From: Streptomyces sp. C10-9-1
Lineage (GTDB): Bacteria > Actinomycetota > Actinomycetes > Streptomycetales > Streptomycetaceae
Direction of reading: 5' to 3'
DNA: 64,000 nt
Assembly (NCBI RefSeq): GCF_024497955.1
Contig: NZ_JANHKP010000002.1
Span: 310,001 to 374,000, forward strand
Shown here: piece after piece, positions 18,934 to 21,183 of the stretch
How positions within the stretch are numbered: the stretch's first letter is position 1
Layout: each line of letters opens with the position of its first letter
Position numbers and translations under genes: made by a program
Notes under the pieces: model-generated
Told to the model about the DNA's origin: nothing
The model's database searches: none
The model's input: only the letters and a program-made list of their open reading frames with translations

Positions 18934-19869
18934 TCAGGCGTCGCTGTTGAGGATGCCGGACTGCGCGATGAGGTAGCCGAGTTGGGCCCGGCTCCCGCTC
19001 CCGAGCGCGGCGGCCAGCTTGGCGATGTGCGCGCGGCAGGTCCGGACGTTCATGCCCAGCCTGCGGGCGATCGCCTCGTCCACATGGCCCTCGATCAGCA
19101 GTTTGGCGATCGAGCGCTGCACCCCGGAGATGCCGTCCGGGGTGGGCTGGTACGGGGCGTCGTCCATCAGCGGGACCGCTCGCTGCCAGAGCTGCTCGAA
19201 CACCTTGATGAGGTACTCGACGAGCCCGGGGTGCCGCAGCTCCAGGGCGACGCGCCGGTCGTCGCTCGCCGGGATGAAGGCGACGGTGCGGTCGAAGACG
19301 ATGAGCCGCTCGATCAGCTCCTCCAGGGTGCGGATCTGCGCCTTCCCGGCCGATATCCGTTCCACGTAGGCGAGCGTGCCCTGGCTGTATCTGACGGTGT
19401 GCTGGTAGAGAGTCCGGATGCTGACGCCCCGGTCGACGAGCAGCCTGTCTCGTTCCAGTGCCTCGGTCAGGACGTCGGCGCTGCGTCCGCCGCCGGGCTG
19501 GATCGTCAGCATCTCCGTGTGGCACTCGGCGGTGGCGAGGTTGAGCGCGGCGTTGATCCGGTCGAATCCCTCCAGCACCGTGATCGCGTGGGTGCTCGCC
19601 GGGGCCTGCGCGCTGACGGCCATGAAGGGTTCGAAGGTGTCCGTCAGTTCTATCGACAGGCGGCGGCGGTCCAGGATCTCCCGCTCGATCGGGTGCAGAC
19701 GTTGCGCAAGGGCGACTGACGGCGGAACCGGACGCAACCAGTGGGGATCGTCCGGATCCGGGTGGAGCAAGGCCAATTCGAGCAGGCATGGTGCGGCTTC
19801 CACGTCGATTCGAGCGATTCGTCCCGTGCTGAGCGCGCTGACGTAAAGTCTCGATCCCTCGGTGCACAT
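18934..19869 (-). CDS. LuxR-type regulator with TrmB/PLD-like sensor region
   Basis: A 311-residue regulator. The C-terminal ~65 residues are a LuxR/GerE DNA-binding domain: ISGVQRSIAKLLIEGHVDEAIARRLGMNVRTCRAHIAKLAAALG. The middle (LVDRGVSIRTLYQHTVRYSQGTLAYVERISAGKAQIRTL and onward) resembles the TrmB/PLD-like effector region of many streptomycete LuxR proteins. No phosphate-receiver domain is seen, so control is probably by a ligand or peptide. The ATG at 19869 (MCTEGSRLY) is preferred over the Cys-rich 40-codon extension. It is divergent from the repeat-peptide gene, with a perfect 16-bp palindrome between them, and is the probable local regulator of that pair. Confidence 0.85.
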   Translation of the reverse strand: MCTEGSRLYVSALSTGRIARIDVEAAPCLLELALLHPDPDDPHWLRPVPPSVALAQRLHPIEREILDRRRLSIELTDTFEPFMAVSAQAPASTHAITVLEGFDRINAALNLATAECHTEMLTIQPGGGRSADVLTEALERDRLLVDRGVSIRTLYQHTVRYSQGTLAYVERISAGKAQIRTLEELIERLIVFDRTVAFIPASDDRRVALELRHPGLVEYLIKVFEQLWQRAVPLMDDAPYQPTPDGISGVQRSIAKLLIEGHVDEAIARRLGMNVRTCRAHIAKLAAALGSGSRAQLGYLIAQSGILNSDA

Positions 19870-19934
19870 CTCCGTGACCCCATGGGGATGTGACTGTTTT
19901 GTCTCGTTCCTAGGCAATGCTCCACCCCCCAGGG

Positions 19935-19950
19935 TCCTGTAGCTACAGGA
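19935..19950. promoter_or_regulatory. Perfect 16-bp palindrome, candidate LuxR operator
   Basis: TCCTGTAGCTACAGGA is a perfect palindrome in the 177-bp divergent region, 66 nt from the LuxR start and 97 nt from the peptide gene. It lies just upstream of a TTGACA box (19975-19980) reading toward the peptide gene, the usual position for an activator site. No good -10 was found 16-18 nt further on, which would fit a promoter that needs an activator. Confidence 0.55.
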
Positions 19951-20046
19951 ACATGATGCATCGGGGCTGTGGCATTGACATGCCTGCATGGGTCATCGTC
20001 TGTGGTGCGGGGGAGAAGAAACCATCAAGTAAGGACGAAGCCGACT

Positions 20047-20319
20047 ATGCGCAAGAGAATGCTTCGCTCGGTGCTTGCCACTGTCTTCTCTGCGACCGTG
20101 GTCTTCGGTGCCGCCAGTGCCCTGGACCCGGCCCTGGGCAGTGTCACGGCGGCGGCCGTGCCTCCGCCGGACAGCGGCTGGGACTCGACCCCGACGGACA
20201 GTGGCTGGAACTCGGCCGCCCTGGACAGTGGCTGGAACTCGGCAGCGCTGGACAGCGGCTGGAACTCCGCACCGATGGACAGTGGCTGGAACTCCGCCCC
20301 GGCGGGTGCAGCAGCATGA
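20047..20319 (+). CDS. Secreted small protein with five DSGWNSA-type repeats
   Basis: A 90-residue protein that I do not recognise. MRKRMLRSVLATVFSATVVF is a classical Sec signal (basic start, then a hydrophobic core). The mature part, after a short Ala/Pro spacer, is five 9-residue repeats with consensus D-S-G-W-N/D-S-A/T-A/P-x and an AGAAA tail. The ATG at 20047 has AAGGACG about 10 nt upstream. Its stop overlaps the next start (ATGA), so the two are translationally coupled. One Trp per repeat and near-identical units suggest a processed peptide precursor, a cell-surface repeat or a ligand-binding repeat. No protease, transporter or known modifying enzyme is adjacent. Function unknown. Confidence 0.8.
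   Translation: MRKRMLRSVLATVFSATVVFGAASALDPALGSVTAAAVPPPDSGWDSTPTDSGWNSAALDSGWNSAALDSGWNSAPMDSGWNSAPAGAAA
20170..20304 (+). repeat. Five 27-bp tandem coding repeats
   Basis: Units start at 20170, 20197, 20224, 20251 and 20278, each beginning GACAG(C/T)GGCTGG. The later units differ mainly at synonymous sites and at the last two or three codons, so the peptide repeat is kept while the DNA drifts, indicating selection on the protein. The first unit is the most divergent (GWDSTPT). Confidence 0.9.
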
Positions 20320-20633
20320 CCATCCCTCCGGACGACCGTGTTTTCCGGCGCGAGATGGCCTCGGCCTACCGTTCCGGGTGGCATTTCATCGACCTCGTCA
20401 CGGCCATCCCCCACCGTGGCGACTCGTTGATGGTCACCCTGTTCGGCGAGCCGATCGTCGTCGCGCGCGAAGAGGACGAGGATGTCCGGGCGTACCGGTG
20501 CCTTCGTCGGCCGCGAGGTGCACCGCAGCCCGTCCGGTGTGCGATCCGGTACGGAATGATCTTTGTCAACCTCGACGCGCGGGACCACCAGCTCGTCGAA
20601 ACCGACACCACCGCCACCCCCCGCAGTGCCTGA
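20316..20633 (+). CDS. Small Rieske-oxygenase-like protein lacking cluster ligands
   Basis: A 105-residue protein coupled to the repeat-peptide gene by a 4-nt overlap. SGWHFIDLVTAIPHRGDSLMVTLFGEPIVVAREEDEDVRAYRCL resembles the beginning of Rieske [2Fe-2S] domains of ring-hydroxylating oxygenases, and CAIRYGMIFVNLD resembles the strand that follows the cluster region. The two Cys-X-His / Cys-X2-His ligand pairs that should lie between are missing: only ~20 residues (CLRRPRGAPQPVRC) remain. It is therefore unlikely to hold a 2Fe-2S cluster. It could be a binding or scaffold protein for the peptide, or a decayed oxygenase. The tight coupling to the peptide gene argues that it is functional. Confidence 0.75.
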   Translation: MTIPPDDRVFRREMASAYRSGWHFIDLVTAIPHRGDSLMVTLFGEPIVVAREEDEDVRAYRCLRRPRGAPQPVRCAIRYGMIFVNLDARDHQLVETDTTATPRSA

Positions 20634-20675
20634 GCGGTTCCCCCGTCGTTACAGACCGCTCAGGTGCTTCCCCCA

Positions 20676-20720
20676 CACAGCGGCGCCATCGTGGACCTGA
20701 AACACGATGGCGCCGTTGTG
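20676..20720. terminator. Hairpin terminator after the repeat-peptide pair
   Basis: An 18-bp stem (CACAGCGGCGCCATCGTG with its complement, one G-U pair) closes a 9-nt loop, 43 nt after the Rieske-like gene stop. The convergent PPOX gene also ends nearby, so it can serve both. Confidence 0.85.
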
Positions 20721-20778: not shown

Positions 20779-21183
20779 TCAGGTGCGCCCCATCGCCCGG
20801 GTGAGGGCGATCTCGATCACGACCCTGTCCGGGTTCGGCCGCGGCGTGCGGCGGTAGCGCGCCGTGTGCCGCGCGACCGCGTCGGCGACCGCGTCCGCCT
20901 CGGTGCGGATGCGTGCCACGCCCTCCAGCGTCGCCCAGCGCTTCCCCTCCACCTGGCAGACCGCGACCCGTGCCCCTTCCGGGCCGGCCGCCAGCACATG
21001 GGCGACCTTGCGGCTGTGCCTGCCCGTGATCACCCGCGCGATGCCCGCCCCGGGGTCGTAGGTGACGCACACCGGGACCATGTGCGGCGTGCCGTCGGGC
21101 CGGGGCGTGGTCAGGGTGCACAGCAGGGGCTCGCCCCAGAACTCCAGGTACGAGGCGTCGGGGCTGCGGGGATCGATGGCCAT
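20779..21183 (-). CDS. PPOX-class flavin/F420-dependent enzyme
   Basis: A 134-residue split-barrel protein of the pyridoxamine-5'-phosphate-oxidase-like family: LEFWGEPLLCTLTTPRPDGTPHMVPVCVTYD (first strands, ~residues 13-43), VITGRHSRKVAHV and GKRWATLEGVARI. In actinobacteria such proteins bind FMN or F420 and reduce or bind varied substrates; the cofactor cannot be decided from sequence alone. The ATG at 21183 has no clear ribosome site. It is divergent from clpB. Confidence 0.8.
   Translation of the reverse strand: MAIDPRSPDASYLEFWGEPLLCTLTTPRPDGTPHMVPVCVTYDPGAGIARVITGRHSRKVAHVLAAGPEGARVAVCQVEGKRWATLEGVARIRTEADAVADAVARHTARYRRTPRPNPDRVVIEIALTRAMGRT

Follow-up and report, generated by a model that had tools for sequence, protein, structure and literature searches.

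The closest described counterparts of the locus treated here are the RRNPP systems (Rap-Phr, PlcR-PapR, NprR-NprX, Rgg-SHP), in which, according to passages of three articles, a small exported propeptide adjoins a regulator of 250-500 amino acids, the signal is a short linear peptide, sometimes present several times in one propeptide, and diverse cognate pairs spread by horizontal exchange (PMC5199041, PMC11343458, PMC10075063). Actinobacterial signals are typically small molecules made by enzymes, as one passage has it (PMC10075063), and for Streptomyces the relevant part of a review lists gamma-butyrolactones (PMC13220807). The locus in question lies in a stretch of 64,000 nucleotides of Streptomyces sp. 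C10-9-1 (hereafter the window; positions 310,001 to 374,000 of contig NZ_JANHKP010000002.1), where a likely exported propeptide with five DSGW(N/D) cores is encoded divergently from a regulator that combines a TrmB-like sensor with a LuxR-type helix-turn-helix (HTH). We consider it quite probable that this locus is a peptide-pheromone system with the regulator as cognate receptor, and likely that the Trp peptide is a private signal by which Streptomyces recognise their own kind. The initial annotation had ventured a peptide signal, with selection on the peptide, and the comparison of more than 100 loci strongly supports that hunch; it had found no class to name, and the functional class proves to be that of an exported peptide with an adjacent one-component receptor.

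In size and adjacency, by which RRNPP pairs are recognised in a passage of one of these articles (PMC10075063), the two proteins compare well, with 90 residues beside 311. The RRNPP propeptide is secreted by Sec; what is seen here is a basic and hydrophobic N-terminus, judged by eye and with a heuristic. On the other hand, the RRNPP receptor contains tetratricopeptide repeats (TPR), whereas here a TrmB-like sensor of phospholipase D (PLD) fold is followed by a C-terminal LuxR-type HTH; the core is fixed here as [DEN]xxWx, and the hosts are Actinomycetes, RRNPP systems being found in Bacillota. Its mode of action would resemble that of RRNPP signalling, yet the system stands outside that family. 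Residues 37-231 of the regulator match TrmBL2 in a sequence search of the PDB (E=4.5e-10), and Foldseek with the AlphaFold2 model (pLDDT 87, pTM 0.61) retrieves TrmBL2 (E=8.8e-14), TrmB and phospholipase-D-family folds. The C-terminus matches the HTH of NarL/DevR/GerE chains in the PDB at E about 1e-5, and Pfam GerE alone stays below its threshold (17.1 of 23.5 bits). A Pfam scan down to E=1 gave no TPR, and the Pfam scan gave no LuxR autoinducer-binding family either, the N-terminal domain being TrmB-like instead. As modelled, the receptor is thus composed of a TrmB-like sensor of PLD fold and a LuxR-type HTH, without TPR. Archaeal TrmB senses sugars and carries its HTH at the N-terminus; the sensor is alike in sequence and fold, but the present regulator has a LuxR-like HTH at its C-terminus and a peptide as its predicted ligand. 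To our knowledge, receptors of the TrmB-like/LuxR class have not been known to bind peptides.

Two signals of Streptomyces itself invite comparison. Like the gamma-butyrolactones (A-factor, SCB1), the pheromone would be self-made, diffusible, read by a cytoplasmic regulator and tied to antibiotic output; unlike them it is a genetically encoded peptide, not the product of a synthase, and the gamma-butyrolactone receptors belong to a different receptor family. The 655-Da peptide imported by BldK in S. coelicolor is likewise an extracellular oligopeptide signal of Streptomyces, as described in part of one article (PMC9640686). It was considered as a possible match and rejected: no fragment of the S. 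violaceoruber-group propeptide that contains [DEN]xxWx has that mass (DTIWS, 620.28), which was reached only by unrelated fragments or adducts. The same article, a pangenome study, describes variation among the substrate-binding proteins of BldK and proposes that the peptides used differ from strain to strain (PMC9640686), which fits the diversity of cores found here. We recognised no report of this peptide, pairing or motif in the literature searched, judged by titles, the beginnings of abstracts and a few passages; preprints and most subscription journals lay outside it, and an unseen report is possible.

A protein search with the propeptide itself returned only 8 proteins at E<=1, itself included, because its cores are hypervariable, and relatives were therefore found through the Rieske-like partner encoded downstream and through the regulator. 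The partner search gave at least 516 encoding places, of which the best 80 form the named loci (79 titled Streptomyces, plus 'Actinobacteria bacterium OV320'); 30 further loci were chosen as the nearest to one S. violaceoruber protein, so that the diversity described below is underestimated. Propeptides were parsed in 108 of 111 loci, to which all core counts refer, and L016, L081 and L100 were read by eye. In both main haplotypes the propeptide has a basic and hydrophobic, signal-like N-terminus. Among the 343 Trp residues of the mature parts, 336 have D, E or N at position -3, a count independent of the search pattern. The dominant cores take 30 forms, including EPSW, DSTW, EPTW, DSGW, DSSW, DISW, DVGW, DPIW and DTIW, and are identical in 462 of 475 pairs within loci versus 360 of 4095 between loci; 82 of the 91 multi-copy loci are fully uniform. 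Relative to the Trp, identity within a locus amounts to 98-100% at positions -3 to 0 (constrained at -3, where D/E/N was part of the search pattern), 69% at +1 and 16-42% elsewhere, and the spacers between cores differ in length and sequence. Copy number ranges from 1 to 7 in the parsed set and reaches 12 in L212. In all 21 loci whose protein ends with its last core, a single residue stands after the Trp (0, 2 or 3 residues in none of the 108), and three C-terminal cores from outside that set agree (DPTWG, DPAWD and DPGWS).

By comparison of these sequences, the predicted signal is a PENTAPEPTIDE, and its conserved unit is the pentapeptide [D/E/N]-x-x-W-x, present here as DSGWN or DSGWD. The protein is, as first described, one of 90 residues with five 9-residue repeats of one Trp each, and Tandem Repeats Finder reports five 27-nt units (20164-20305, 5.3 copies, score 165); the 9-mer containing DSGWNSA, proposed at first as the unit, gives way to the pentapeptide as what is under selection. 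The synonymous drift noticed between the repeats of the window is real and general: codons of identical cores differ synonymously in 421 of 1386 comparisons, which argues that selection acts on the peptide and that the uniformity is not only a matter of DNA homogenisation. Homologues without repeats had been named in advance as evidence against a system. Single-copy forms do exist, but those with a C-terminal core end one residue after the Trp and so sharpen the signal. A weak match of the propeptide to a Phr N-terminus model (16.3 bits, cut-off 25) was set aside.

The pairing of peptide and receptor is supported by the way in which both are inherited. Trees were built over the 80 loci, and core class was treated as a two-state character (proline cores versus the rest). 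The regulator tree and that of its residues 1-240 each require a single change of core class, compared with 5 on the clpB tree, 6 on that of partner DNA and 5 on that of the HTH tail (the last 70 regulator residues); the tetrapeptide changes 26 times on the regulator and sensor trees, 39 on clpB, and 37 on both partner DNA and the HTH tail. Labels shuffled 40 times required at least 21 core-class and 52 tetrapeptide changes. With DPIW left out of the proline class, 1 change was counted for the regulator and 6 each for clpB and the partner protein. Individual comparisons illustrate the same pattern at the DNA level. The window and L002, whose cores are GEPSW/GEISW, are 89.1% identical in clpB and 91.7% in the partner, versus 69.4% in the sensor and 63.3% in the signal-peptide region (77.8% in the repeat region, aligned with gaps); the sisters L003 and L005, with cores DSGW and DIGW, are 97.1% identical in the partner and 74.4% in the sensor. 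Mean pairwise identity is 64% for the sensor and 89% for the HTH, the closeness of the latter being in keeping with a conserved operator. Of the 25 regulator columns that best track the core, 23 lie before residue 240, where about 19 would fall by length alone, a descriptive figure since related pairs were used. Residues that track the core include F102, N110, G127-R129, T135, A137, E170, A174, A201 and R205. These sequence comparisons indicate that sensor and signal are exchanged as one cassette, which is characteristic of a cognate pheromone-receptor pair.

Outside this locus, 83 loci with paralogous regulators (66-357 bits), in other places, genera and families, were examined. Of the signal-like small open reading frames, 14 of 129 divergent from the regulator and 7 of 153 convergent with it end in or repeat [DEN]xxW. 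As controls, the strand of the regulator itself gave 0 of 130 and 1 of 123, and 25 unrelated loci from the genome of the window gave 0 of 127 (divergent 14/129 versus controls 1/380, p=3e-8; shuffled mature parts, mean 0.38, maximum 2). A Trp-core propeptide candidate thus stands at 21 of the 83 loci, some of them in other genera and in one other family. Clear examples are L306 (DTGWG three times, the final copy C-terminal), L312 (DVGWN four times), L305 (DSGWG twice), L264 (DSAWG) and L274 (DPGWA), together with five members of family f26 (L293, L320, L326, L327, L329), whose convergent propeptides hold two DTSWG, DTTWG, DTTWP or DTAWE cores. In f26, which lies outside Streptomycetaceae and also includes L296, the Trp-core propeptide is convergent with the regulator, not divergent. 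An AxA-like site was seen by eye at most two residues before the core in L293, L320, L327 and L329. None of four paralogue-side propeptides reached a curated cut-off in NCBIfam, and none of three in Pfam.

The partner, whose gene starts within the last four nucleotides of the propeptide gene (ATGA, as first annotated), can be aligned to the Rieske domain at the N-terminus of ring-hydroxylating oxygenases (E=9.5e-8 for the GbcA model and about 1e-4 for PDB chains), and Foldseek gives TM-scores of 0.47-0.57 by query with no hit at E<=0.001. The absence of a Rieske cluster, already pointed out for the window, extends to the relatives: none of the 47 aligned contains the CxH..CxxH ligands, CLRRPRGAP or close variants occupy the place of CxHRG, and the second loop is missing; the diverged partners of L209 and L211 lack even that Cys. 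The tail PRSA ends all 47 aligned partners, and the diverged forms of genomes G102 and G181 end otherwise (TPHCA). An enzymatic Rieske function was rejected, as there are neither cluster ligands nor an oxygenase domain. Judged from its sequence, the partner is a relic of the N-terminal domain of a Rieske oxygenase alpha-subunit, devoid of cluster ligands. It does not track core specificity, and no relative of it (E<=0.01) was found at the 83 paralogous loci. Of the three-part system first proposed, the pairing of regulator and propeptide is kept as the predicted core, and the partner falls outside the specificity core. It is probably a generic, non-specific accessory or output protein acting through its conserved C-terminal tail, and this is the weakest part of the model.

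The cassette, which looked undescribed in the initial annotation, is not rare: the partner is matched in 332 of 392 Streptomyces genomes, in 322 of them at E<=2e-48 and in ten weakly. The three of the ten that were examined (G046, G102, G181) contain the regulator. Next to the regulator, L209 (G181) and L211 (G102) have both a diverged partner and a lone C-terminal core; the diverged partner is present in L223 (G046) as well. Among 249 genomes of the same family, the partner is found at E<=1e-53 in 84, and the regulator at E<=1e-145 in 83 of these and in no genome of the remaining 165; in the one exception, G503, the regulator match next to the partner is shortened. In thirty genomes that lack the partner, regulators reach paralogue level at most (up to 288 bits), and ten of ten with it, the three diverged ones included, have regulators of 437-526 bits. 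The co-occurrence of the genes suggested from the window is borne out in the named loci: the regulator is divergent from and adjoins the partner side in 80 of 80, clpB, a heat-shock gene, follows in 80 of 80, and a gene with a PNPOx domain lies convergent between partner and clpB in 78; a match to it is missing from L064, L071 and L112, the last being the S. violaceoruber-group locus. An hspR gene lies within the upstream flank of 61 of the 80; of the other 19, three flanks are short and 16 span a full 8 kb but contain no hspR, which shows that synteny is not constant on the upstream side. On the evidence of these genomes, the clpB-side locus is a Streptomyces system present in most of the genus. 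In many strains, tandem arrays of related TrmB-LuxR regulators adjoin the divergent receptor (L052, L056, L067, L073, G286:C7:228997-233866, G102:C1:4249757-4253628); a scan of the named loci found no second repeated Trp-core propeptide beside them, and the arrayed regulators may be eavesdropping or obsolete receptors.

Every element first described can be seen in the window, namely the regulator, the propeptide with its repeats, the Rieske-like partner coupled to it, the palindrome and the 3' hairpin, and their coordinates are collected in the table. By Pfam domains (DnaJ, MerR, ClpB), the gene order is dnaJ, hspR (MerR type), regulator (minus strand), propeptide, partner, PNPOx protein and clpB, and a DNA search found the locus once in the window's genome. 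The database copy of the regulator has 327 residues, which fits an upstream TTG start at 19917. The perfect palindrome between the divergent genes belongs to a site common to 110 of the 111 loci under a slightly degenerate pattern. The exact pattern TCCTG-N5/6-CAGGAACATGATG occurs once per genome in 245 of the 392 Streptomyces genomes, its reversed control in none, and it is absent from all 60 genomes in which the partner had no match (those missing from the partner-match listing) and from all ten weak-partner genomes. Half-site spacing tracks haplotype without exception: it is N5 in the proline-core loci (35 of 35) and N6 in the other loci that have the site (75 of 75). The operator was also tried as a guide to a regulon and given up as uninformative on targets, since the relaxed palindrome (up to 1 mismatch) occurs 665 times per strand versus 921 for the reversed control. 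Between operator and propeptide start (19960-20046), the main-haplotype consensus shows conserved blocks, GACGTGCC..GAATGAGCCATCGTC and GGGGGA, likely promoter and leader. What had been called a strong terminator is a genuine hairpin (folded region z = -3.84; 0 of 200 shuffles equally stable), but it has no U-run, and a consensus scan for intrinsic terminators did not call it.

Table. Positions in the window of the features of the predicted pheromone locus.
Feature	Positions	Strand	Remarks
Regulator, predicted pheromone receptor	18934-19869	minus	311 aa from ATG
LuxR/NarL-type HTH of regulator	18955-19137	minus	about residues 245-305; sequence match
TrmB-like/PLD-fold sensor of regulator	19150-19869	minus	about residues 1-240; sequence match and fold
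Operator-like site	19935-19958		16-nt perfect palindrome TCCTGTAGCTACAGGA (19935-19950), then ACATGATG
Propeptide	20047-20319	plus	90 aa; signal-like N-terminus, then five Trp cores
Predicted pheromone copy 1, DSGWD	20170-20184	plus	propeptide residues 42-46
Predicted pheromone copy 2, DSGWN	20197-20211	plus	propeptide residues 51-55
Predicted pheromone copy 3, DSGWN	20224-20238	plus	propeptide residues 60-64
Predicted pheromone copy 4, DSGWN	20251-20265	plus	propeptide residues 69-73
Predicted pheromone copy 5, DSGWN	20278-20292	plus	propeptide residues 78-82
Rieske-like partner	20316-20633	plus	105 aa; without cluster ligands; tail PRSA
18-bp hairpin closing the operon	20676-20720	plus	no U-run
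PNPOx-domain gene, before clpB	20779-21183	minus	Pfam scan

A link to phenotype comes from S. coelicolor, a close relative of S. violaceoruber. In the S. violaceoruber-group locus, the order is hspR, a 372-aa periplasmic-binding protein, two proteins, of 394 and 327 aa, both of which contain a relative of the regulator, then the regulator itself (divergent), the peptide (ending SDTIWS), the partner and clpB. The periplasmic-binding-protein gene (L112:3881-4999; Peripla_BP_4, E=3.8e-66) lies between hspR and the regulator array, in the expected place of SCO3667. In part of one article, the S. coelicolor proteins SCO3666 and SCO3665 are listed with 394 and 327 residues (PMC3282765), and from gene order and these sizes we infer that the next gene, SCO3664, is the orthologous regulator. 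According to a passage on regulator mutants, an insertion in SCO3664 raises actinorhodin more than 50-fold (PMC6585502), so that the orthologue would normally restrain actinorhodin.

By analogy with RRNPP signalling, the signal peptide would take the propeptide out of the cell, general extracellular proteases would free the pentapeptide, an oligopeptide importer of the Opp/Bld type would return it, and the pentapeptide would then bind the PLD-fold sensor. The HTH, conserved like its operator, would in turn bind the shared promoter and further targets more or less tightly. At high kin density, relief of the restraint on actinorhodin by the self-peptide is probably the commonest outcome, the direction of the effect being close to an even call.

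Several observations weigh against a pheromone and cognate receptor. Secretion, processing, import and binding are all taken over by analogy with RRNPP, and signal peptides were assessed by eye and with a crude heuristic, not with SignalP. The core rule is broken by 7 of the 343 Trp and 9 of the 91 multi-copy loci, and L074 has no operator. Core propeptides stand beside only 21 of the 83 paralogous regulators, L189, L303 and L316 looking like chance, and of the five TrmB-type paralogues in the window's genome four have no core propeptide and the fifth has only a doubtful one. In the mutant study, as far as the passage goes, 12 of 16 regulator mutants were restored by complementation, and SCO3664 may or may not be one of these (PMC6585502). 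The trees of HTH and partner are short and poorly resolved, which somewhat inflates their change counts. Moreover, the genes for peptide and sensor lie side by side, and linkage alone could explain their joint exchange; this is weakened by the fact that the partner does not go along although its gene overlaps that of the peptide, and that the break within the regulator falls between sensor and HTH. Adjacency, which can by itself make two genes recombine together, also gives some room to the proposal that the propeptide is a cell-surface or structural repeat protein, co-inherited by linkage with an unrelated regulator. Tandem repeats and a signal-like N-terminus would suit such a protein, but it would have to account for C-terminal-core forms that end precisely at Trp+1, for an equally close partner and HTH half that do not co-segregate, and for paralogous regulators elsewhere of which some own Trp-core propeptides; we regard it as highly improbable.

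It could also be postulated that the locus makes a ribosomally synthesised and post-translationally modified peptide (RiPP) or antimicrobial, the multi-core precursor yielding Trp pentapeptides that are modified to a small product under control of the regulator, with the Rieske-like protein aiding maturation. The repeated cores, signal-like N-terminus and pathway-style regulator are what such a cluster would have; yet the neighbours in the window are dnaJ, hspR, the PNPOx protein and clpB, the last of which follows in every named locus. No maturase was recognised, the genes between regulator and hspR of other strains not having all been read. The partner itself, devoid of cluster ligands and oxygenase domain, is missing from the paralogous loci, and a product without a receptor role would not predict that the core tracks the regulator's sensor domain. 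This reading seems unlikely. Another reading would keep the ligand-receptor pair but confine it to the producing cell, the propeptide or its fragments binding the regulator before or without export as a private feedback timer, with no signal between cells. All the sequence evidence for pairing applies to it equally, and it is the signal-like N-termini of both main haplotypes and the AxA-like sites just before the core in four relatives, both judged by eye, that make it decidedly unlikely and leave the exported pheromone as the preferred reading.

Taking the paralogous loci together with the clpB-side locus, we lean towards the view that Actinomycetes possess their own, so far unrecognised ribosomal pheromone family, with linear [D/E/N]xxW-x signals and TrmB-like/PLD-fold LuxR-type receptors in dozens of species-specific dialects, swapped as a cassette and setting the timing of antibiotics in Streptomyces, where the clpB-side locus would be its most widespread member. 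If true, most Streptomyces, whose signalling is described mainly via small molecules, would share a ribosomal, species-specific peptide language. This would explain the orphan SCO3664 mutant, with its more than 50-fold rise in actinorhodin, and would open a concrete way to establish which peptides from outside the cell are taken up and read by streptomycetes. Beyond this, it would predict what to seek beside many unassigned TrmB-LuxR regulators of actinomycetes, and would provide testable five-residue inducers of antibiotic production as a new way to wake silent clusters.

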